From positions 1-64,000 of the forward strand of contig JAFXLL010000011.1 of the NCBI GenBank assembly GCA_017531225.1: a DNA stretch of 64,000 nt. Reading direction: 5' to 3'. This stretch comes from Bacteroidales bacterium (lineage in GTDB: Bacteria > Bacteroidota > Bacteroidia > Bacteroidales > F082). The first letter of the stretch is position 1; the number at the start of each line of letters is the position of its first letter. Below, piece after piece: positions 40,179 through 51,993 of the stretch. The notes under the pieces are model-generated. The model worked only from the letters and a program-made list of their open reading frames with translations, was not told where the DNA came from and made no database searches. The translations under genes were made by a program, and so were the position numbers.

Positions 40179-41168
40179 ATGGAAAACCAAATTGTTATTT
40201 ATCAGGCTGATAATGGTCAGACTTCGATTGAGGTCCGTTTGGAAAATGAAATGATATGGCTTACTCGTGATCAGATTGCGGTTTTGTTTGGCCGTGATTA
40301 CAAAACTATTAGTAAGCATATCAACAATGCGCTTCGGGAGGAATTGGCAGGTTCAATGGTAGTCGCAAAATTTGCGAATACCACTCAACACGGTGCTATA
40401 GAAGGAAAAACACAGACTCGCGACAAAGAGTATTTCAACCTTGAAATGATTACCTCTGTTGGATATCGTGTCAAAAGTCAACGAGGTGTCCAATTCCGTC
40501 AATGGGCTAACCAAGTATTGAAAGACTATCTTTTGAAAGGTTATGCGATAAATGATAGAATCCGCAAAACCCAAATCAAAGAACTCCGTCAGTTGGTCCA
40601 GATGGTTGGGAGAACGATCCAAAACCAACCTTTGTTGAAAACCGATGAAAACCAAGCCTTGTTTGACATTGTTGTGGATTACACTTACGCCCTCGATACG
40701 CTTGATGATTACGACTACCAACGCTTGGGGGTGAAAGAGACCACGCAGGAGGAGAAGTTCCAAGCGACATACGACAACGCCATGCAGGCTATTGCTGCCT
40801 TACGAAAAAAGTTTGGAGGTAGTTCGTTGTTTGGTAACGAGAAAGACGATTCCTTTAAAAGCAGCATAGGTCAAATCTATCAGACGTTTGACGGCAATGA
40901 TCTTTATCCCAGCGTGGAAGAGAAAGCAGCCATGCTGTTGTATCTCGTCACTAAGAATCATTCGTTCAGCGACGGTAACAAACGCATTGCCGCAACGCTG
41001 TTCCTGTGGTTCCTCAACAACAACGGCATCCTCTACCGCGAGGATGGCGGCAAACGTATTGCCGATAATACCCTTGTCGCCCTAACTTTGATGATTGCAG
41101 AAAGCAAGCCCGAGGAGAAGGATGTGATGGTAAAGGTGGTGGTTAACCTTATTAATCAAAGGAATTAA
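40179..41168 (+). CDS. RhuM-like protein fused to Fic/Doc domain
   Basis: 329 residues. Residues 1-125 resemble the RhuM virulence family (IWLTRDQIAVLFGRDYKTISKHINN, EYFNLEMITSVGYRV). After a helical linker, a C-terminal Fic/Doc domain has HSFSDGNKRIAATLFLWFL at 261-279. In Doc-type proteins this motif (H-x-F-x-D/N-x-N-K-R) acts as a kinase or AMP-transferase toxin. No inhibitory motif S-x-x-x-E-G was recognised. The N-terminal part probably binds DNA and may autoregulate. A 38-codon frame starts five bases after its stop. Confidence 0.83.
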   Translation: MENQIVIYQADNGQTSIEVRLENEMIWLTRDQIAVLFGRDYKTISKHINNALREELAGSMVVAKFANTTQHGAIEGKTQTRDKEYFNLEMITSVGYRVKSQRGVQFRQWANQVLKDYLLKGYAINDRIRKTQIKELRQLVQMVGRTIQNQPLLKTDENQALFDIVVDYTYALDTLDDYDYQRLGVKETTQEEKFQATYDNAMQAIAALRKKFGGSSLFGNEKDDSFKSSIGQIYQTFDGNDLYPSVEEKAAMLLYLVTKNHSFSDGNKRIAATLFLWFLNNNGILYREDGGKRIADNTLVALTLMIAESKPEEKDVMVKVVVNLINQRN

Positions 41169-41974: not shown

Positions 41975-42012
41975 TTGTGCCATTAATTGGCACAATCATT
42001 CGTTTATTTCGC
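41975..42012 (+). promoter_or_regulatory. Shared promoter-operator element, copy E0
   Basis: TTGTGC (41975-41980), 9 bases, GCACAA (41990-41995), 12 bases, TTCGC (42008-42012). The palindrome extends to ATTGTGCC/GGCACAAT. It lies 32 bases before the AAA+ ATPase ATG. The -7 part (TTATTTCG) is weak. It lacks a T-run, so it is not a terminator. Confidence 0.65.
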
Positions 42013-42043
42013 ACCGTAATTCAAACCTTAAAAGGAAATTGTT

Positions 42044-43699
42044 ATGGAAGCGAAAAAGCAAAACACCCGTAAAATGGATCTGCTCTCGGCAGTGGAACAG
42101 ATTGTTGAACTTTCAAAAGACTCTCGTCTTGCAAAGGAGTTCTATACCAAGGCTGCTCGGCCTTTGAAGTATCTGTCGGAAAAGATGGAACTTTCCAAGG
42201 AGCAAAGCCTGATGTTGTCTCTCTTCATCGACAACTGTAGCAACAACCGTATCACCGTCAGCGATTTTGCCTCGTTTCTCGATTGCAGCACCACACGGAT
42301 TATCCGATTAATGAACGAAATCGACGTTTTGGAACAACGGGGTCTTGTGTGCCGTAGCTATACCCGCAGCGGCATTACTTTTCGTGTTCCGATGGAGGTA
42401 ATCGACGCTTTCCGTAAGGACGAGAAATTTGTCCCCAAGGATTTGTCTGGGATGAACTGCTTGCAGCTTTTTGGCGAGTTGCACGAAATCTTTGAGATGC
42501 GCGACGACAACGAACTTTCCTACAATTTGGTCAAGCAACGCATCCAGTCGCTGTTTAGCAGCAATAGCCAGTTGCTCTATGTCCAAAAGGTAAGGAGCTT
42601 CCAGCTCGGAGAAGACGAGGAAATTCTTCTGGTTCTGATTTCGCACTTGTTCGTCAACAACAACGACAACATCATCGGTTATCACGACCTTGAATTCTTA
42701 TATGATCATAAGAGCCAATGGAAGTATGTTTGCCGAGAGCTCAACAGCAATACTCACATCTTACAGTTAAACAATATTATTGAGTTCAACAACGACGAAG
42801 GCTTGGCTGACCGGGAATCGTTTAGAATGACTTGGACGGCAAAACAAGCCCTCTTTCCGGAACTCAACCTGGCCTCGCTTGAACAGGACAAAAACCGCAG
42901 CAATGTCCTCCAGCATGAGAAGATTACTGCTAAGCAACTCTTCTATGACCCGGCGGTTGCCGCCCAAGTGGAGAATCTGACTCAACTATTGGACCAGCAG
43001 CATTACAAAGAGGTGTGCGACCGATTAAAGGACAAAGGCTATCGCTGTGGCTTTACTTGCCTCTTTTACGGCGCTCCCGGCACGGGTAAAACTGAGACGG
43101 TGCTTCAGTTGGCGCGTCAAACGGGTCGCGACATCCTTCAGGTCAATATTCCCGATATCAAGAGCGCATGGGTAGGAGAGAGCGAGAAGAACATCAAGCA
43201 TGTGTTCGACCAATACCGCGAAAAGGTTGAAGCACTTCAAACCACGCCCATTCTGCTCTTCAACGAAGCCGATGCCATCATTGGCAAACGTCAGGAAGGT
43301 GCGGAACGTGCTGTGGATAAGATGGAAAACGCCATCCAAAACATCATACTTCAGGAGATGGAAAACCTCAACGGCATCTTGATCGCCACCACCAACCTTG
43401 CCCAGAACATGGACAAGGCCTTCGAGCGTCGTTTTCTCTATAAGATCAAGTTCAACAAGCCCACCTTGGACGCAAGGATTCATATTTGGAAGACGATGCT
43501 GCCTGACTTACCAGAGGCCGACATCAAAGCATTGGCTGAGCGTTACGATTTCAGTGGAGGCCAAATCGAGAACGTTGCCCGCCATTATGCCATCGACACC
43601 GTCTTGCATGGCGATGAACCTGTTTCCTTGGAAAAACTCATTTCGCATTGTGATGGTGAGCGCCTGGAACAAAAGGAAAGTAGAAAAATCGGTTTTTAA
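42044..43699 (+). CDS. AAA+ ATPase with N-terminal winged-helix region
   Basis: 551 residues. Residues 1-130 contain a winged-helix-like region (NRITVSDFASFLDCSTTRIIRLMNEI). The AAA+ module begins near 300: Walker A GAPGTGKT (343-350), Walker B ILLFNEADAII (about 403-413, with Asn where Asp-Glu is usual), DKAFERRFLYKIKF with candidate arginine finger, and a C-terminal lid domain. It resembles FtsH/p97-type AAA+ remodelling ATPases rather than helicases. It is the first gene under the shared element and may work with the GmrSD-like gene downstream. The Walker B glutamate is kept, so ATPase activity is plausible. Confidence 0.82.
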   Translation: MEAKKQNTRKMDLLSAVEQIVELSKDSRLAKEFYTKAARPLKYLSEKMELSKEQSLMLSLFIDNCSNNRITVSDFASFLDCSTTRIIRLMNEIDVLEQRGLVCRSYTRSGITFRVPMEVIDAFRKDEKFVPKDLSGMNCLQLFGELHEIFEMRDDNELSYNLVKQRIQSLFSSNSQLLYVQKVRSFQLGEDEEILLVLISHLFVNNNDNIIGYHDLEFLYDHKSQWKYVCRELNSNTHILQLNNIIEFNNDEGLADRESFRMTWTAKQALFPELNLASLEQDKNRSNVLQHEKITAKQLFYDPAVAAQVENLTQLLDQQHYKEVCDRLKDKGYRCGFTCLFYGAPGTGKTETVLQLARQTGRDILQVNIPDIKSAWVGESEKNIKHVFDQYREKVEALQTTPILLFNEADAIIGKRQEGAERAVDKMENAIQNIILQEMENLNGILIATTNLAQNMDKAFERRFLYKIKFNKPTLDARIHIWKTMLPDLPEADIKALAERYDFSGGQIENVARHYAIDTVLHGDEPVSLEKLISHCDGERLEQKESRKIGF

Positions 43700-43717
43700 C
43701 TCATAAAACAACGTACT

Positions 43718-43873
43718 ATGAAATACAGACACAAAGTAAAACAACAAACCAACAATTACAAACGCTATGAGAAACACCTCTATTCAAACTACTCACTCCG
43801 CAAGGAAAAAGCCTAGCACGTCTTGTTCCTCTATCTGGAATGCCGTATGAAAGATTGGTGGGAATTGTTTTAG
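43718..43873 (+). pseudogene. Small gene interrupted by an in-frame TAG
   Basis: A 51-codon frame from ATG 43718 to TAG 43871-43873, broken by one in-frame TAG at 43814-43816 (codon 33). Before it: a basic 32-residue peptide beginning MKYRHKVKQQTNNYKRYEKH. After it the same frame continues HVLFLYLECRMKDWWELF, also protein-like. Either a small gene disabled by one nonsense change, or a separate 32-residue protein with unrelated downstream DNA. The promoter for the next gene overlaps its last codon. Confidence 0.45.
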
Positions 43874-43881
43874 TACCTTTG
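43874..43881 (+). promoter_or_regulatory. -7 box of the DUF262/DUF1524 gene
   Basis: TACCTTTG, 31 bases before the ATG at 43913. No copy of the shared palindromic element is present here, unlike at the neighbouring genes. Confidence 0.5.
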
Positions 43882-43912
43882 CCTAATTGGTATTATTTGG
43901 GAACAATAGAAT

Positions 43913-45955
43913 ATGTCGTATATGAAAACAGATTATAAACAGTATTTAATAAGCGAAGTGGCAAACTGGTTGGTTCCAGAAAGTGAAGTTCAGCTGCCTG
44001 TAGTGCAACGAGGCTTTGTTTGGAAGGTGTCTCAAATAGAACGTTTATGGGATTCTCTGTTTAGAGGATATCCTATCGGTGCTATGATGTTGTCACGCGA
44101 AGGTCAGAACTTGATGTTGCTTGACGGTCAGCAACGTGCTACTTCTATCGCATTAGGCTTCTACAATCCCTGGAAAGAAGAAAAGAATCAAATAGGGAAC
44201 GCAAACAATCTCCCTGTTGTTTGGATAGATGTCAATCCGAGGAAAAAAACCGACACTCAAGAATATGTTTTTCGTGTTGTAACTCGTTCACATCCTTGGG
44301 GTTATCAAATCCAACACAATGAAAGCATATTGTCGGTCCCAGCAAGAAGAGATGCTTCAGCCCAATATTATGAATTATTTGGACAGTCGGTTTATACAAA
44401 TTATACAAAACTCCTACCAACACAGCGGCTCCCTTATGATGCTACTTGTCCTATCCCGCTTTGTTTATTACTTGAGACTGCGTACAATGGTCATGACACA
44501 GGATGGTTAATAGATAAGTGCAAAGAATACATCCCAAATGAATACCGTACTTTGGGAATGGTGGAGGATGAGAATTATTATTCAATGCTCGAAACCACGG
44601 ACTTGTTGCCTATTATTAAAACCGTAAAAGAGAAGGTTCTTCCCATGAAAATACCGGCCATAGTTTTTCCAGAAGAATTGCTGTTGGATAAGTCTGATAC
44701 ATCCCCAGATGAATCTACTTTGTTTGTGCGCCTCAATTCACAGGGTACAAAGATTGAAGGAGAGGAATTAATGTACTCAATGTTTAAAGCGGCATGTCCA
44801 GAAGTCAAAAACCTTGTGGATTGTTTAGGGATGAACATCATTCCGCCTTCACGAGTAATCACTCTCACTTCACGCTTAATATTATCCTCCGAAAACTTTG
44901 TCTCTGGATTGTCATTGGCTCAGTTCAGAAAGTATGTACAAGACGAATCTTTCATCAATAAGATAAGAGAGCTTATCGGCGATGAAATAAATAGTCCAAT
45001 AAAGCATAAAATAGAATGTGCTATTTGGATTCTAAAATATAGCAACGTCCCGGACGTTGTTGTCAAGAAATATATTAGAGAATCCCCTAATGGATTCATG
45101 TTGCTACTTCACTGGCTGCTCGAAAACGATGGAGTTCAGATTGATGAAAACAAGAGAAAAGAGATATGTTCACGACTTTACAGGAATCATTGGTTTGGGA
45201 ACGATTTCGACTTTTATGTTCGAGAGAATTGGAATAATGTATCAGAACCTGACTTTTGGAGTGATAAGTATTTTGTGAACAATGATTGGATTAGGCAACA
45301 CCCACTAATTAGTCCAGAGCAATTATTGTCTTTCTTGAAACAACGAGCCCAAAGCCCTTCGGAAAACCACGATATCAGTCCTAATGCGCCCGAATGTAGC
45401 GATATTTGGCAAATATGGGAAGCTTCTTTACCACGACCTGATAATCTTACTGATGAACAATATCAAGGCAGAATAATGGATGCGTGGAGAAACTTTTTAT
45501 GGAAACTATTAAGCACAAGAGATAAGTCTTTAATCTTGTTAGCTCAGAGAGACTATATCAATCGTACATTTAAAGATTTTAACCAACTGGAGGATCTTGA
45601 GGATACCAACACACCTTGGGATTGGGATCATATTTATCCTAATAGTTGGGTTTATGGCCAATGGTATATTGATCCGCGTACAAGGGCATGGGAAAACCGT
45701 GTTGGTAATTTCCGTGCTATGTCATTAACAGATAATAGAAGTGAGAATTGTTATAAATCTCCAGCAGAGCGTTTTGATGCTCCAAATACGGACTATTTTA
45801 TCTGCGAAAACGATTTAAAATATTGGTCTTTATTGGACGAAGCACATAAGTACATCAAGGAAGATAATGCCGAATATGTACTAATTCATGCAAAAGCTAT
45901 TATCACGCGGACCATAAACATATATAAGAACTTCTTAGAGGAATTTGTCTTTTGA
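43913..45955 (+). CDS. GmrSD-like DUF262/DUF1524 restriction protein
   Basis: 680 residues. N-terminal DUF262: VVQRGFVWKVSQIERLWDSLFRGYPIG near 30-55 and LLDGQQRATS near 69-78, the pattern of the ParB-like nucleotide-binding GmrS half. C-terminal DUF1524: DWDHIYPNSW near 570-580 and NRVGNFRAMSLTDNRSENCY, the His-Me/HNH-like GmrD half. GmrSD is a type IV system that cuts glucosylated hydroxymethylcytosine DNA of phages. Here both halves are in one chain. Base composition is lower in GC than the flanking core genes, suggesting transfer. It has its own promoter. Confidence 0.87.
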   Translation: MSYMKTDYKQYLISEVANWLVPESEVQLPVVQRGFVWKVSQIERLWDSLFRGYPIGAMMLSREGQNLMLLDGQQRATSIALGFYNPWKEEKNQIGNANNLPVVWIDVNPRKKTDTQEYVFRVVTRSHPWGYQIQHNESILSVPARRDASAQYYELFGQSVYTNYTKLLPTQRLPYDATCPIPLCLLLETAYNGHDTGWLIDKCKEYIPNEYRTLGMVEDENYYSMLETTDLLPIIKTVKEKVLPMKIPAIVFPEELLLDKSDTSPDESTLFVRLNSQGTKIEGEELMYSMFKAACPEVKNLVDCLGMNIIPPSRVITLTSRLILSSENFVSGLSLAQFRKYVQDESFINKIRELIGDEINSPIKHKIECAIWILKYSNVPDVVVKKYIRESPNGFMLLLHWLLENDGVQIDENKRKEICSRLYRNHWFGNDFDFYVRENWNNVSEPDFWSDKYFVNNDWIRQHPLISPEQLLSFLKQRAQSPSENHDISPNAPECSDIWQIWEASLPRPDNLTDEQYQGRIMDAWRNFLWKLLSTRDKSLILLAQRDYINRTFKDFNQLEDLEDTNTPWDWDHIYPNSWVYGQWYIDPRTRAWENRVGNFRAMSLTDNRSENCYKSPAERFDAPNTDYFICENDLKYWSLLDEAHKYIKEDNAEYVLIHAKAIITRTINIYKNFLEEFVF

Positions 45956-45972
45956 ACGGTTTCTATAATAGC

Positions 45973-46010
45973 CTGCGCTTCATTTCGGCACAGGCTTTCT
46001 TTTTCTTCGC
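45973..46010 (+). promoter_or_regulatory. Shared promoter-operator element, copy E1
   Basis: CTGCGC (45973-45978), 9 bases, GCACAG (45988-45993), 12 bases, TTCGC (46006-46010). It lies 32 bases before the metallopeptidase ATG. The outer GCC/GGC pairs and T-rich tail would also let it act as a terminator for the gene upstream. Confidence 0.7.
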
Positions 46011-46042
46011 AACGTGAACTGAAAAGAAAATAACAACATGAC

Positions 46043-47080
46043 ATGAAAGAATTAAGCTCGTTATTTGAAGTTAGTCTGCAGTGCCAAGAAATCGCAAACA
46101 TGTCCCTAGTTGAGATTGAGGCAATTCCACCAGAAGACGTTGCTTATCTTTATTGTTCTGCGGAAAAATTCGTTTTGGAAGAAATAAACCAATTGGCAAA
46201 AGAATTCGGTTTCCCTTATCCTGTTTTGACAGAAATACAAGTTTTCGTGCGTAAAGAGAGATGGTATCTTGCGGCTAATTGTGGAAGGATTATTGTGCCT
46301 TTTCAAACAATATTTGAAACCGACTATAATGAACTAGTTAGTATTTTAATCCATGAATTATGCCATTTTGAGTACACAACCCATTGTAAGTCTTTTTGGG
46401 AGTTGTTTGAAAAGTGTTTGAAAGAAAAAAAGCTTGTACCAAGTGATTATATTGGTTATAAGTATAAGAAGTATCTAACAGTTTACGTAACCCCATTTCG
46501 TTGGCGAGAAAGACAGAAACAGTATAAAGTTGTATTCAAGAAAAACTTCTTGAATTACTGTAGTCAATTTGATTATTTGACACAACCAGAATTTGAAAAA
46601 TTTCAAGAGTACAAGAGAATTCAAGGCCGTTTCCTGCTCGAATCTCCACAAGAATACTCTGGAGAGATAGTGTATGTGATATTTTGTGCATTGATAAGAA
46701 TATTTCATAATAAATATATTCAATTCTATCTTTTTGATTCTGGTCGGTTTATTAAAACAGATAACAAGGAATTATTGTATCTAAAAGATGAAAACCAAAT
46801 CTTATGCTTGCGTTATGACTCTAGGGTAAAAAATGATGATGTGCGAATTGCCTATATTGTTGATCGGATGAAAGCAGATAACACATGTGTTTTTTCATCC
46901 TATAACAAATGCCTCATTATTCTTGAAGTTGATGAGTCACATCCATTGAATATAATTGAATTGAATAAGTTAAAAGAAATACCGATGACTAAAGGTATGG
47001 ATTTGAAAATAATCTATAGTATTACTCATCGCTACCGCAATCTGAACAAATGCGAAATGATTGTTGTGTTTAGCAAATAA
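46043..47080 (+). CDS. Putative zinc metallopeptidase (YgjP/SprT-like)
   Basis: 345 residues. HELCH at residues 104-108 within LVSILIHELCHFEYTTHCKSFWELF: the second H and the later His/Trp-containing HCKSFWELFEKCL fit the YgjP-like (DUF45) arrangement H-E-x2-H...H-x3-F-W. The C-terminal 200 residues have no recognised domain. Proteases occur in several defence systems as effectors; that role is inference. Low GC like its neighbours. Confidence 0.65.
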   Translation: MKELSSLFEVSLQCQEIANMSLVEIEAIPPEDVAYLYCSAEKFVLEEINQLAKEFGFPYPVLTEIQVFVRKERWYLAANCGRIIVPFQTIFETDYNELVSILIHELCHFEYTTHCKSFWELFEKCLKEKKLVPSDYIGYKYKKYLTVYVTPFRWRERQKQYKVVFKKNFLNYCSQFDYLTQPEFEKFQEYKRIQGRFLLESPQEYSGEIVYVIFCALIRIFHNKYIQFYLFDSGRFIKTDNKELLYLKDENQILCLRYDSRVKNDDVRIAYIVDRMKADNTCVFSSYNKCLIILEVDESHPLNIIELNKLKEIPMTKGMDLKIIYSITHRYRNLNKCEMIVVFSK

Positions 47081-47092
47081 TAGTTTTTTATC

Positions 47093-47130
47093 CTGTGCTT
47101 CAATCTGGCACAGGCTTTCTTTTTATTTGC
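47093..47130 (+). promoter_or_regulatory. Shared promoter-operator element, copy E2
   Basis: CTGTGC (47093-47098), 9 bases, GCACAG (47108-47113), 12 bases, TTTGC (47126-47130). 24 bases before the ATG at 47155. A T-rich stretch follows the palindrome. Confidence 0.72.
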
Positions 47131-47154
47131 AGCCTAATTCTAAAACAAATTATT

Positions 47155-47376
47155 ATGAGTAAAGTATTCAAAGTATGGCCCAAGCGGGTCAAGAGAACCA
47201 ACGGAACAGTTCTAACTCCAGAAATGGTCGTCATCGTGACCACCAAAAACCATGTCTCCAGCCCCTTTGTTAACGGAGCCCAGGAAGTCAAAGACACCTA
47301 CATGCGCCTCTACCAATTCGACTACAAAAAAGCCTGTTGTACCCAATCGGATTTTGAGTACGTGGCGTTGGATTAA
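47155..47376 (+). CDS. Small conserved-looking basic protein (73 aa)
   Basis: 73 residues from ATG 47155: MSKVFKVWPKRVKRTNGTVL, then TPEMVVIVTTKNHVSSPFVNG and YMRLYQFDYKKACCTQSDFEY. A single alpha/beta mini-domain; family not known to me. It precedes the PD-(D/E)XK nuclease gene under the same element. Confidence 0.6.
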   Translation: MSKVFKVWPKRVKRTNGTVLTPEMVVIVTTKNHVSSPFVNGAQEVKDTYMRLYQFDYKKACCTQSDFEYVALD

Positions 47377-47439
47377 GAAGACTAATCATGAAATAAGAAC
47401 AAATGATATGCGTCTGATATGGATTATTAACAAAAAAAG

Positions 47440-47478
47440 TTGCTTAATTGCAGCAAATGAAAAAAATGAGTTATTTTG
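47440..47478 (+). promoter_or_regulatory. Possible second promoter before the nuclease gene
   Basis: A short inverted repeat TTGCT-N7-AGCAA (47440-47456) and a weak -7 box TTATTTTG (47471-47478), 19 bases before the ATG at 47498. It differs from the shared element. Confidence 0.35.
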
Positions 47479-47497
47479 CAATTAAATCTAGAATAAA

Positions 47498-48481
47498 ATG
47501 CCAGTTATCGATTTTTTTCAATCTCTTTCATCAAAATATCACAAAGAAAATGATTTGTCGGATATCACATGGGCCATGTGTCTCTCTTGTGAATCCTTTA
47601 GAGTTGCTTTTCTAAAGTTTTTTTTCCCCGAAATGATAATAAAGCCTTCATTAACCATTGAAAGAGAAAAGGCCGAGGATGATAGTCGTCCAGATTTCTA
47701 TATAGAGAATGGCGATGATCGTTATTTAATTGAAAATAAAATAAATGACACAAACCACCATTTTGGACAATATGATGAGACTTTTAATATTAAACCCGTT
47801 CATTTTGGTTATATCACAAACTATGTGATTTATGATAATGATGTTCGAAATAAAGGTTATAGGTTGCATACCTGGGAAGAGCTATATAAGTCTTTTTTAA
47901 ATAATCTTCCGAATAATGTTGAAGAGCAACAACTTTGGAAAGGATACCTTGAATTTGTTAAAAACGTATGTGGAATAATTAAAATTGAAAAGCCAATGAA
48001 CTTAGAAGGCCTTTACTCTTTGTATTCGCTAGTGGAAATTCTTGATAAGCCACTTTCAAACAGAAGCGAAACTGAATTTTCCTTATCCATTTATGACAAA
48101 CTCAAGAAATGTGGTGGTGGTTATGCCAGCGGGGTAACTGGAGTTAATTTTGAACTGAATTATAAATCATTGACCCAAAATAAAATTTGGGGATGGATAG
48201 GAATCTTTTATTATTGTGAGAGACCAACAATTGCGATTGGTTTTCCTGACACCCCCTCCTGGGGAAAGGGTTTTATTGATTTAATCAGGCCATTTAAGAA
48301 TAATTGGTCAGATCAAAGTTTCTTTAAGAAGCCCTACTTTGACGAAGGCTGTCTTTGGTTTGAATTATTAGAAACACATTTCGAAGAGTTTAATAAACTG
48401 CAAAATATTGATGATCAAATTACCTTACTGAAAAACTATATGGACGAAGTAATACTTTATCCCAAGGTGTTGTTTGAATAA
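47498..48481 (+). CDS. PD-(D/E)XK nuclease superfamily protein
   Basis: 327 residues. RPDFYIENGDDRYLIENKIND contains Asp66 and E79-x-K81, the PD-(D/E)xK catalytic signature. The preceding helical region and following FGYITNYVIYDND fit the fold core. The C-terminal half has aromatic-rich segments of unknown role (KIWGWIGIFYYCERP). Probably a restriction-type or defence nuclease. No methylase is adjacent. Confidence 0.75.
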   Translation: MPVIDFFQSLSSKYHKENDLSDITWAMCLSCESFRVAFLKFFFPEMIIKPSLTIEREKAEDDSRPDFYIENGDDRYLIENKINDTNHHFGQYDETFNIKPVHFGYITNYVIYDNDVRNKGYRLHTWEELYKSFLNNLPNNVEEQQLWKGYLEFVKNVCGIIKIEKPMNLEGLYSLYSLVEILDKPLSNRSETEFSLSIYDKLKKCGGGYASGVTGVNFELNYKSLTQNKIWGWIGIFYYCERPTIAIGFPDTPSWGKGFIDLIRPFKNNWSDQSFFKKPYFDEGCLWFELLETHFEEFNKLQNIDDQITLLKNYMDEVILYPKVLFE

Positions 48482-48510
48482 AGATTATTTTCTGTATGAT
48501 TTATTTTAGC

Positions 48511-48548
48511 CTGTGCTTCAATTCGGCACAGGCTTTCTTTTTCTTTGC
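48511..48548 (+). promoter_or_regulatory. Shared promoter-operator element, copy E3
   Basis: CTGTGC (48511-48516), 9 bases, GCACAG (48526-48531), 12 bases, TTTGC (48544-48548). 35 bases before the ATG at 48584. Nearly identical to E1 and E2 over 40 bases. Confidence 0.72.
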
Positions 48549-48583
48549 AGCGAAAATAAGTCTAATCCCAAATATAAAGCACA

Positions 48584-49270
48584 ATGGGTATCATAGAAAT
48601 ACTTCGAGATTACAAAATACAAAGCACATTGAGTATCAAAGAAACACTTCAGGATTATGCCTTGCAGGAAATTGAAAAACAAATCATACTAGTTTATAAC
48701 AGCCCGATTGATATAGACCATAGCTATATGGATGAACCAAGCTTGCTCCGTGTCAGGAAAAACATTATCAATCATTATATGCTGCAACGCCAAGAAGAAT
48801 TGCTTCCCGACATTATCGCTTTCAACGATGCATTGCGCGAGGCTTTGCGAAAGGTGTATGACAGGGCTCATGATGATTATGAAAACAATAAAGAACTGGG
48901 AAAGGATGAATTAGTGGATGCTTGCTGCTTTTTGGATGGAGACTATCCAGCTTTACATCCTTTGCAAACGGAGAACCGCCAAGAACTTTGGGAAGCCTTG
49001 CTGGATTCAGGCTGGAATCGGCAATATGAAGGTGTGACTCATCATCCACTTGTGGTCAATCAGGAGTCCAAAGAGACCTTCGACGAGTTCATTGGAATGA
49101 AATCTCCTTCAGCAAATTGGAACGAAGGCCTTGACCCGGAGCTGACTAAAGACCTGCATTTAATCAACGCCTTCCATCATCTGCTCAATGATACAGAATT
49201 CGCTATCACCGACTTCATCTATTGTCGAGACTTTTGCTATTATGGTCCAGACTATTGTCTTTTGTTATGA
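48584..49270 (+). CDS. Hypothetical protein in defence-like cluster
   Basis: 228 residues, largely helical: DYALQEIEKQIILVYN near the N-terminus, RQEELLPDIIAFNDALREALRKVYDRA in the middle, and an aromatic/cysteine-rich end (FIYCRDFCYYGPDYCLLL). I recognise no family. It is under copy E3, so probably co-regulated with the ATPase, metallopeptidase, nuclease and WYL genes. Confidence 0.65.
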   Translation: MGIIEILRDYKIQSTLSIKETLQDYALQEIEKQIILVYNSPIDIDHSYMDEPSLLRVRKNIINHYMLQRQEELLPDIIAFNDALREALRKVYDRAHDDYENNKELGKDELVDACCFLDGDYPALHPLQTENRQELWEALLDSGWNRQYEGVTHHPLVVNQESKETFDEFIGMKSPSANWNEGLDPELTKDLHLINAFHHLLNDTEFAITDFIYCRDFCYYGPDYCLLL

Positions 49271-49302
49271 GATTAAAGTGGTGATAAGCGAATATTTTTT
49301 AC

Positions 49303-49340
49303 TTGTGCTATGATTTGGCACAGTCTTTTTGTATCTTTGC
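49303..49340 (+). promoter_or_regulatory. Shared promoter-operator element, copy E4 (WYL gene)
   Basis: TTGTGC (49303-49308), 9 bases, GCACAG (49318-49323), 12 bases containing a consensus -7 box TATCTTTG (49332-49339), ending TTTGC. 20 bases before the WYL gene ATG. It shows that the last part of the shared element is a true promoter. Confidence 0.75.
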
Positions 49341-49360: not shown

Positions 49361-50266
49361 ATGTCTAAAAACCTCATCAACAAATACGTCTGGCTTGTAG
49401 AAACCCTCTACAAAGCCAAGAAAATCACCCTGAAGGAAATCAACCGGAAATGGACGCAAACCGAGTTGAGCGAAGGGGAGGAGATTCCTCGCCGCACCTT
49501 CGACAATTGGAAGAAAGCAGTAGAGGATATGTTTGGTCTTGTCATTATGTGTGATAAGCGCGATGGTGACCGCTATTACATCGAGAACAGCGAGGTGCTT
49601 GAGGACGACGGCCTGCAACGCTGGCTGCTCAGCACCATGTCGGTCAACAACACGCTGTTGGAAAACAAGTCGCTAAGCGACCGCATCCTGCTGGAAAGCA
49701 TCCCATCGGGCCAAGACTTCCTTGCCACCGTCATGGAAGCGATGAAGAAAAACCGTTTGCTGGAAATCACCTACAAAGGCTATTGGAGCGAAAACGAGCA
49801 CACCTTCCCCGTGGCACCCTATTGCGTGAAGCTGTTCCGTCAGCGGTGGTACATGGTGGGCAACAGCGTCTATGAAGACAAAATCCGCATCTATTCCTTG
49901 GACCGCATACAGGAAGCCCAGCTGTCGGAGGAAACCTTCAAATACCCCAAGAAATTCAACCCGGAGAATTATTTCAAAGGCTGTTTCGGGATTATCCGTG
50001 ACGAGGATTGCACCATCGAGACCGTAAAGATTAAAGTGAGCACTAACCAAGCCAACTATTTGCGCTCCTTGCCGCTACACACTTCGCAAGAAGAAGTGGA
50101 ACGCAATGATAATTTCAGCATCTTTACCCTGCAAGTCAGGCCAACTTTCGATTTCCAGCAGGAGCTTCTTTGGAATGGTGATGCGCTTGAAGTGCTGGAA
50201 CCGCTGTGGCTTCGCAAAGAAATGGCCAGCAAGGTCAAGCAGATGTGGAACCACTACAAAAAGTGA
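49361..50266 (+). CDS. WYL-domain transcriptional regulator
   Basis: 301 residues from the ATG at 49361 (MSKNLINKYVWLVETLYKAK). An N-terminal winged-helix region (about 1-75: ITLKEINRKWTQTELSEGEEIPRRTFDNWKKAVE) is followed by a WYL domain (about 125-220: LLEITYKGYWSENEHTFPVAPYCVKLFRQRWYMVG) and a C-terminal extension domain. WYL proteins of the CapW/BrxR type repress phage-defence genes until a nucleic-acid or nucleotide ligand binds. Its promoter carries copy E4, so autoregulation is likely. It is the best candidate regulator for all five element copies. Confidence 0.88.
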   Translation: MSKNLINKYVWLVETLYKAKKITLKEINRKWTQTELSEGEEIPRRTFDNWKKAVEDMFGLVIMCDKRDGDRYYIENSEVLEDDGLQRWLLSTMSVNNTLLENKSLSDRILLESIPSGQDFLATVMEAMKKNRLLEITYKGYWSENEHTFPVAPYCVKLFRQRWYMVGNSVYEDKIRIYSLDRIQEAQLSEETFKYPKKFNPENYFKGCFGIIRDEDCTIETVKIKVSTNQANYLRSLPLHTSQEEVERNDNFSIFTLQVRPTFDFQQELLWNGDALEVLEPLWLRKEMASKVKQMWNHYKK

Positions 50267-51238: not shown

Positions 51239-51502
51239 ATGAAAAAACACTATACCTTCAGCACAGGCGAAACCATTGAGGCCGACTCTGACGACCTGCG
51301 TCGGCTCTTGGCGGAGAACCAGCGATATCTGGATAATTATGAAGAGGTCTATAGTTCCTTTGAGGACGATGATTATATAGCCCGAGGCAATGGCTTCTGT
51401 GACCGCAAGTTCAGCGATGACTTCATCGAGGGACAGATGGAGAAATATGCCCAACGGGTGAATGAGATTGAAGCCTGGATCAAAAAAGAGGAGAAAAAAT
51501 GA
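51239..51502 (+). CDS. Small acidic hypothetical protein
   Basis: 87 residues: TFSTGETIEADSDDLRRLLAENQRYL, an acidic middle (SSFEDDDY) and a helical C-terminus (QMEKYAQRVNEIEAWIKKEEKK). Its stop overlaps the start of the exonuclease gene (ATGA), so it is probably translated with it. No family recognised. Confidence 0.65.
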   Translation: MKKHYTFSTGETIEADSDDLRRLLAENQRYLDNYEEVYSSFEDDDYIARGNGFCDRKFSDDFIEGQMEKYAQRVNEIEAWIKKEEKK

Positions 51503-51993
51503 AGAATTTCGCTGCCATCGATTTTGAGACCGCCAATAACGAGCGTACCAGCGTGTGTAGCGTGGGCGTGGTGATCGTGAGGGAAGGGGAGTTCGTGGAT
51601 TCGTTCTACTCGCTCATCCAGCCGGAGCCGAACTATTACCTCTATTGGAATACGATGGTTCATGGCATCACACAAGCGGATACCGAAGATGCTCCCGTGT
51701 TCCCATACGTTTGGGAAAAGATAGAACCACTCATCGAAGGCCTGCCATTGGTGGCTCACAACAGTCCTTTCGACGAGGGTTGCCTCAAAGCCGTCATGCG
51801 CTGCTACCAAATGGATTATCCTGACTACCAGTTTTACTGCACCTGTCGGGCGTCAAGAAGGCATTTCGGGAAACAATTGCCCAATCACCAACTTCACACC
51901 GTTGCTGCCGCTTGTGGCTATGATCTTATCAATCATCATAACGCCTTGGCCGACGCCGAAGCCTGCGCTTGGATCGCCAGGGAGATTTTATAG
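51499..51993 (+). CDS. DEDDh 3'-5' exonuclease (DnaQ-like)
   Basis: 164 residues. ExoI FAAIDFETAN, ExoII VAHNSPFDEGCL, ExoIII HHNALADAEACAW, the four acidic residues and histidine of the DEDDh family. Short single-domain exonucleases of this type occur in many Bacteroidales. It may repair ends or act in the defence island. It lies 126 bases upstream of the dnaE fusion gene, which has its own exonuclease domain. Confidence 0.88.
   Translation: MKNFAAIDFETANNERTSVCSVGVVIVREGEFVDSFYSLIQPEPNYYLYWNTMVHGITQADTEDAPVFPYVWEKIEPLIEGLPLVAHNSPFDEGCLKAVMRCYQMDYPDYQFYCTCRASRRHFGKQLPNHQLHTVAAACGYDLINHHNALADAEACAWIAREIL

Follow-up and report, generated by a model that had tools for sequence, protein, structure and literature searches.

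The window analysed here is the 64,000-nucleotide stretch given by positions 1-64,000 of contig JAFXLL010000011.1 (GCA_017531225.1) of a Bacteroidales bacterium. It contains an island of defence-like genes in which five copies of one DNA element stand ahead of separate genes, one of them encoding a WYL regulator. We propose, at a probability of about 70%, that this WYL protein sets its own operon and many separate, mostly defence-like genes through the element. An earlier note on this DNA had suggested a small defence regulon autoregulated by the WYL protein, and comparison now supports this idea, through sites specific to the island, the co-occurrence of element and WYL gene, dyads ahead of WYL genes and dyad letters that go with WYL clades.

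The element and its distance to the promoter box

The pattern YTGYGC-N9-GCACAR-N12-TTYGC described in the earlier note occurs exactly at 41975, 45973, 47093, 48511 and 49303, all five on the plus strand. If up to two mismatches are allowed the window still yields the same five matches, and dinucleotide-shuffled windows searched in this way give 0.20 matches on average, with none out of 100 reaching five. The genome-wide scan that the note had called for finds five exact matches, every one in the island, in the 2.58 Mb and 14 contigs of the genome; two further matches with one mismatch lie elsewhere, and the reversed pattern used as a control has no match in the same 2.58 Mb.

All five copies match the pattern exactly on the plus strand. 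E0 (41975..42012), a near-perfect dyad TTGTGCC-N7-GGCACAA with the box TTATTTCGC and a hairpin of -12.9 kcal/mol, lies between divergent genes and precedes the gene of an AAA+ ATPase. E1 (45970..46010) carries an additional AGC before its first arm and precedes a metallopeptidase gene, the terminator-like E2 (47093..47130) has no AGC extension and precedes a DUF6140 gene, and E3 (48508..48548), also terminator-like with 10 pairs and the AGC extension, precedes a gene of the family that we call f1. E4 (49303..49340) has the consensus -7 box TATCTTTGC, which belongs to the TA class described below, and precedes the WYL gene. The distances from the end of the copy to the start codon (31, 32, 24, 35 and 20 bases for E0 to E4) agree with the earlier description, as does the close likeness of E1-E3, with E0 and E4 retaining the arms, the spacing and the box. 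The pattern was thus given correctly and its length was not, as the first arm is preceded by AGC and the second followed by GCT, making a consensus dyad of 27 bp. A copy is not present ahead of every gene of the island. Upstream of the DUF262 gene, which starts at 43913, the interval 43700-43912 contains an ordinary TACCTTTGC box (43874-43882) but not the element, and this gene may be outside the regulon; the possible nuclease gene starting at 47498 has the box TTATTTTGC at 47471-47479 and no dyad.

In order to derive a consensus we combined 20 kb of the window with 41 further stretches, all chosen for carrying the element or the WYL gene, so that the counts describe the element and not its frequency. 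Consensus columns, box classes and the context of the AGC extension were counted on distinct sequences only. The element comprises about 45 bp, with AGC-YTGYGC-N9-GCACAR-GCT followed by a T-rich stretch and a Bacteroidetes -7 box, and its consensus is AGC-YTGTGC-TTCAATTCG-GCACAG-GCT-TTYKTTTTCTTTGC-AGC (107 exact matches, 103 of them distinct with their flanks). The letters of the loop are conserved in the column table as well. When the spacer was allowed to vary, 111 matches on the strand of the element had the main spacing, 13 were longer by one base and four had other spacings, and the opposite strand had five scattered matches. The centre of the dyad is 19 nt upstream of the -7 box and, judged from the sequence only, over the -33 region. 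A relaxed pattern gave 134 elements, spread over 39 of the 42 stretches, a tally that was not deduplicated; a plus-strand open reading frame (ORF) starts within 150 nt behind 123 of them, at a median of 28 nt, and 36 protein families are represented among the genes that follow directly. These scripted gene calls are simple ORF picks in which small genes and starts can be wrong.

The -7 boxes fall into two classes. In the operon of the regulator, in which we included the RhuM-Fic gene that precedes the WYL gene in some islands, all 20 distinct elements have TA in the box (15 of 15 before WYL and five of five before RhuM-Fic), and 102 of the 108 other distinct elements have TT. TAnnTTTG is the known Bacteroidetes -7 consensus (PMC7366714). 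Outside of the elements TAnnTTTGC precedes an ORF in 159 of 361 cases, compared to 28 of 272 for TTnnTTTGC, 18 of 274 for TGnn and 7 of 236 for TCnn. Ordinary promoters of these loci have TTG 19-20 nt ahead of the box (10.6% and 8.1% of 236). At this usual gap TTG is absent from the consensus of the element, which therefore does not have the TTG/TTTG feature of Bacteroidetes at -33; a -33 TTTG within the element was considered and rejected, as there is only TTYG at a gap of 14, which does not fit. From the two boxes, their frequencies before ORFs and the missing TTG we conclude that the promoters of the targets look weak and that of the regulator looks more normal.

Three other identities of the element were tried and rejected. 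For a sigma-54 promoter, in which GG and GC are spaced by 10, the spacing of 20 in the sequence does not agree; the sole match to a known RNA family was U4, below threshold with an E-value of 0.37; and for a phage origin, a viral collection gave 19 stretches with one match each, which by a rough estimate is about the level of chance.

The copies might also be mainly intrinsic terminators of the preceding gene, with the promoter reading being secondary or wrong. They do have a stem and a T-rich stretch, a terminator scan lists E0, whose T tail is poor, as well as E2, E3 and E4, the hairpins fold at -9.3 to -16.9 kcal/mol and 89 of 103 copies lie at most 60 nt past a plus-strand stop codon. Moreover, the AGC extension is found in 59 of 85 elements after a co-directional gene and in 10 of 29 after a divergent gene (p 0.0017; 130 distinct elements, of which 16 were in neither group). 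However, a terminator has no need for the exact spacing to the -7 box or for conserved letters in the loop, a divergent gene lies upstream of 29 distinct copies, E0 among them, and the GCT side is the same in both contexts (67 of 85 and 21 of 29). A double substitution that preserves the outer pair (AGA...TCT), present in five distinct copies, fits a stem or a DNA dyad. We regard termination as the main function as unlikely and read it as a second role of the element: copies behind a co-directional gene may double as the terminator of that gene.

As a side observation, a single dyad in one relative (stretch L127 near 3833; G126:C1:42129-42183) is flanked by a matching box on both sides and may serve two divergent promoters.

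Co-occurrence with the WYL gene and clade-specific letters

Of the 174 genomes of the family, 43 contain exact matches to the pattern, often several per contig in one orientation. All 43 are within the genus of the window (100 genomes), and the reversed pattern gave no match across the 174 genomes. A WYL protein of at least 75% identity is encoded in 39 of the 100 genomes of the genus, namely in 34 of the 43 with the element and in 5 of the 57 without (Fisher 3e-13). Among these five, two have near-matches (G081 and G067) and in three the WYL gene is near a contig end (G050, G108 and G135).

The promoters of more distant WYL genes point in the same direction. For relatives of at most 62% identity we compiled 35 distinct upstream regions, many from other genera. 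A TAnnTTYG box is present within 110 nt in 21 of them, one of which belongs to a 35% paralogue. The best dyad is in exactly the register of the element in 16 of the 21, compared to 9.3% of 236 ordinary promoters, a comparison slightly biased towards the own promoters as there the best of several boxes was taken and in the controls each box. When near-identical promoters were collapsed by eye the count was 11 of 15. The letters of these dyads differ from those of the element and include CTTGTGCC, CTATGCCC and CATATGCC. The variant ATGTGC-N9-GCACAT occurs in 6 of the 100 genomes of the genus, and in all six a WYL gene of 56-60% identity lies 1.2-3.1 kb downstream, with contig and strand shared; in G136 the site deviates by one letter. 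An exact CTCTGCC pattern is present in 3 of 295 genomes of the order. The family of the AAA+ ATPase is headed by CTGTGC-type copies in 13 of 15 members in the genus, by ATGTGC in stretch L158 and by CTCTGCC in L060, L078 and L204, and in L063 and L204 the CTCTGCC type is shared by the own site of the WYL gene and the neighbouring copies.

The genome of the window itself contains a second set of related genes (stretch L199, contig C9), with a 37% paralogue of the WYL protein, a 41% paralogue of the AAA protein and a 37% paralogue of f1. Here a CTCTGCC dyad is located before the AAA paralogue and a CTTTGCC dyad further along.

Several results weigh against the proposed regulon. Besides the bias just mentioned, 14 of the 35 own-promoter regions have no box and were excluded from the dyad count, 7 of 13 genomes with a WYL protein of 56-62% identity lack the exact ATGTGC site, stretches examined from G106, G082, G062 and G094 contained no dyad, and in L060, L066, L078 and L067 the dyad of the WYL gene differs in type from the copies nearby. 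Behind 11 of the 134 elements no plus-strand ORF starts within 150 nt, 14 of 134 have the start of a minus-strand ORF on their left, and the TTnnTTTGC box of the targets matches the known -7 consensus poorly. Nine genomes have the element and no WYL protein of at least 75% identity: in G075, G090 and G100 the protein has 54% identity, G064 (95% complete) and G131 (78% complete) have two copies each and distant WYL proteins only, and the remaining genomes have one copy each. Finally, the co-occurrence of element and WYL gene can be explained by joint inheritance too. The single copies of G090 and G105 look like chance because the extended consensus is missing. In G084 and G092 (stretches L203 and L206), which encode no close WYL protein, a single copy is located near genes that flank arrays elsewhere, and such copies are perhaps remnants of lost arrays.

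That another regulator reads the site and the WYL protein merely travels with the island would agree with the arrays located away from the WYL locus (L137, L142 and L145) and with the few genomes that have copies and no close WYL protein. The co-occurrence, although the link test covered the WYL gene only, speaks against it, as do the clade-specific letters and the dyads that keep the register ahead of WYL genes in other genera, and we consider it improbable. Binding and control by the WYL protein is the most likely reading.

The proposed regulator and the sign of its control

The WYL gene (49361..50266, plus strand) encodes the proposed binding protein of 301 aa with matches to the Pfam families WYL (8.2e-15) and WCX (2.9e-12). 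We place its start at 49361; the start of a longer ORF at 49310 falls within E4. No helix-turn-helix family was found in the protein by the Pfam scan at 0.05, and its N-terminal part looks helical and winged by eye alone. The earlier note had likened the protein to the CapW/BrxR group, which the comparison does not support. In a search of the PDB with a profile of 16 sequences of the WYL family the best matches, by way of the WYL-WCX part, were PafBC (1.6e-12) and DriD (2e-11; structures 7TZV and 9PFQ/9PFV/9PGA), and CapW and BrxR (7QFZ) followed at 0.076 and 0.18. In addition, the dyad is located over -33 and not over -10 or downstream.

DriD from Caulobacter crescentus is a WYL-WCX activator whose site overlaps -35 at a constant distance to -10 and which works at several non-optimal promoters (PMC12340889). 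It differs from the case described here in its role in the DNA-damage response and its asymmetric binding, and neither a repeated 45-bp element nor defence modules are described for it (PMC12340889). PafBC, the best match of the profile, is a WYL activator that replaces the recognition of -35, but it consists of two fused or paired subunits, uses a -26 motif and controls a mycobacterial DNA-damage regulon (PMC11804915). BrxR and CapW in turn are WYL regulators of defence genes with a palindrome ahead of their own gene (PMC9122601, PMC9122588), a feature shared by the WYL gene of the island with E4. Both are repressors, CapW with a site over -10 (PMC9122588) and BrxR with a site downstream of the promoter (PMC9122601), and one or two sites are described for them, compared to the array of modules here; the two sites of BrxR in the one island of pEFER have the form 11-N5-11 (27 bp) (PMC9122601).

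We therefore suggest a mechanism in which a WYL dimer would occupy a two-fold-symmetric site over -33, at a fixed distance from the Bacteroidetes -7 box, which in turn would set the position of the transcription start. With the WYL protein as the binder, its own operon and the separate defence-like genes would be tuned by it, and one signal would shift all of them together. Concerning the sign of this control we lean towards activation of the targets, because the site overlaps -33, the -7 box of the targets is non-consensus and that of the regulator consensus, the nearest solved relatives are activators and the geometry of DriD fits the element better than that of CapW or BrxR. Still, activation is no more than an even call.

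The same regulon could be run by a repressor of the CapW/BrxR type that is bound in quiet cells and released on infection. CapW and BrxR indeed repress defence operons and their own genes via palindromes (PMC9122588, PMC9122601), two sites are known in one BrxR island (PMC9122601), and a dyad over -33 would also block the polymerase. On the other hand, the profile values for CapW (0.076) and 7QFZ (0.18) are far from the 1e-12 to 1e-11 reached by PafBC and DriD, the site is neither over nor downstream of the -10/-7 region, and the seemingly weak boxes of the targets are unneeded under repression. In our view repression is the less likely of the two.

In the literature searched, with most subscription papers outside its scope, we found no account of the element or of a multi-copy WYL operator in Bacteroidales. 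RptR resembles the WYL protein in that it is small and controls a defence island by means of a palindrome, but it is a different protein and its 6-bp TAGCTA sites form three direct repeats at one promoter (PMC12255303). How bacteria keep changing sets of defence genes under common control is a largely open question, and operator letters that differ among WYL clades provide a ready test for the evolution of WYL specificity.

Probable exchange of modules and the genes behind the element

The islands show differing gene orders and recurring modules, often between identical flanking genes. For a comparison we took 163 pairs whose downstream genes belong to one family (at least 80% identity) and whose upstream genes belong to different families. 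Averaged over these pairs the identity amounts to 0.90 for the gene and 0.84 for the element and falls to 0.48-0.51, the level of unrelated sequences, just upstream; the leader has a mean of 0.69, with 0.42 in 65 WYL pairs and higher values in most other families, and the four RhuM-Fic pairs showed no break in similarity. Within the TT class (116 elements, the pairs of which are not independent) the piece from the upstream stop codon to the element has an identity of 0.48 in 50 pairs with the same downstream and different upstream genes. In 37 pairs with the same upstream and different downstream genes, some of which depend on simple gene calls (e.g. L113 vs L120), this piece has 0.79 and the similarity drops past the box. 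Because the similarity between islands breaks at the element, the element and its gene seem to behave as an exchangeable module, for which homologous exchange at the repeated element would be the simplest account. A gene swapped in at the element would therefore enter the regulon.

Modules with the element at their borders that reappear in changing order, as in cassette arrays, could also mean that a dedicated site-specific recombinase acts on the copies, which would then be comparable to the cassette joints of integrons or rAID systems, with regulation being incidental. No tyrosine recombinase (PF00589) was found within the arrays of 21 genomes, serine recombinases not being part of the search, and the nearest one, in genome G126, is separated from an array by about 12 kb. 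As the crossovers seem spread across the element, the -7 box and its class are preserved and homologous exchange is simpler, we regard a dedicated recombinase as very unlikely. The rAID systems of Bacteroidales likewise are co-oriented arrays with conserved intergenic motifs, but what defines them is a tyrosine recombinase together with short orphan immunity genes (PMC12247911), and the genes scanned here belong to other families. Tentatively, and a little short of an even chance, we suggest a cassette system free of a recombinase, in which the 45-bp element would combine operator, promoter, often terminator and exchange joint, and in which WYL lineages, two of them in the genome of the window, would use different letters for related gene sets and thus form insulated parallel regulons. 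If the control element is also the exchange joint, as it appears to be, this would account for the way in which newly acquired genes come under the common response. Unknown defence genes could also be discovered by examining whichever gene follows the element, which so far has yielded 36 families.

In the island of the window the genes from 42044 to 49270 are on the plus strand. The AAA+ ATPase gene (42044..43699; Pfam AAA 3.5e-25) shows a weak likeness to IetA in PADLOC (3.4e-33, residues 291-539), which is confined to the ATPase part. It is followed by the GmrSD/DUF262-type gene without a copy of the element (43913..45955; Pfam GmrSD_N 5e-22, PADLOC HEC-05), the YgjP/WLM-type metallopeptidase gene (46043..47080; Pfam YgjP-like 4.9e-07) and the gene of the small DUF6140 protein (47155..47376; Pfam DUF6140 1.1e-09). 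For 47498..48481 the earlier note had proposed a PD-(D/E)XK nuclease; a PD...EXK-like motif can be recognised by eye, no Pfam nuclease family matches, and the gene, which has no dyad ahead, is best called a possible nuclease. The f1 gene (48584..49270) has no match in Pfam or PADLOC, which also holds for the families f11, f17 and f23, and relatives of f1 head 14 elements in 14 stretches including the window. Just beyond the array, 40179-41168 encodes a RhuM-Fic fusion protein; in several islands a relative of this gene stands ahead of the WYL gene and is headed by a TA-class element. The genes of the island are, in this listing, AAA+, DUF262, metallopeptidase, DUF6140, possible nuclease, f1, WYL, Fic and exonuclease. 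When the first eight of these nine were searched with PADLOC, the AAA+, DUF262, WYL and Fic genes gave matches and the other four gave none. Other islands contain a PLD nuclease (DrmC-like), an FtsK-like protein (SspH-like), a GmrSD-like protein (HEC-06/SspE-like) and PDDEXK_4 (PDC-S26) as well as bpMoxR AAA, tubulin-like GTPase and UDG-like proteins. From these family matches a role in defence is likely for the genes behind the elements.

Downstream of the WYL gene lies the gene of a DnaQ-like exonuclease (51499..51993, plus strand; Pfam RNase_T 2.2e-17). Among 19 distinct loci of the WYL family with at least 47% identity and 2.6 kb of downstream sequence, 16 have such an exonuclease after the WYL gene (e.g. 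L041, L063 and L204), a count from which 63 further distinct hits with too little downstream sequence were excluded. None of seven WYL paralogues below 45% is followed by one. PafBC and DriD sense single-stranded DNA (PMC11804915, PMC12340889), and the reaction of PafBC included a test with added exonuclease I (PMC11804915). Because both relatives sense single-stranded DNA, our guess is that the exonuclease might reset the signal of the WYL protein.

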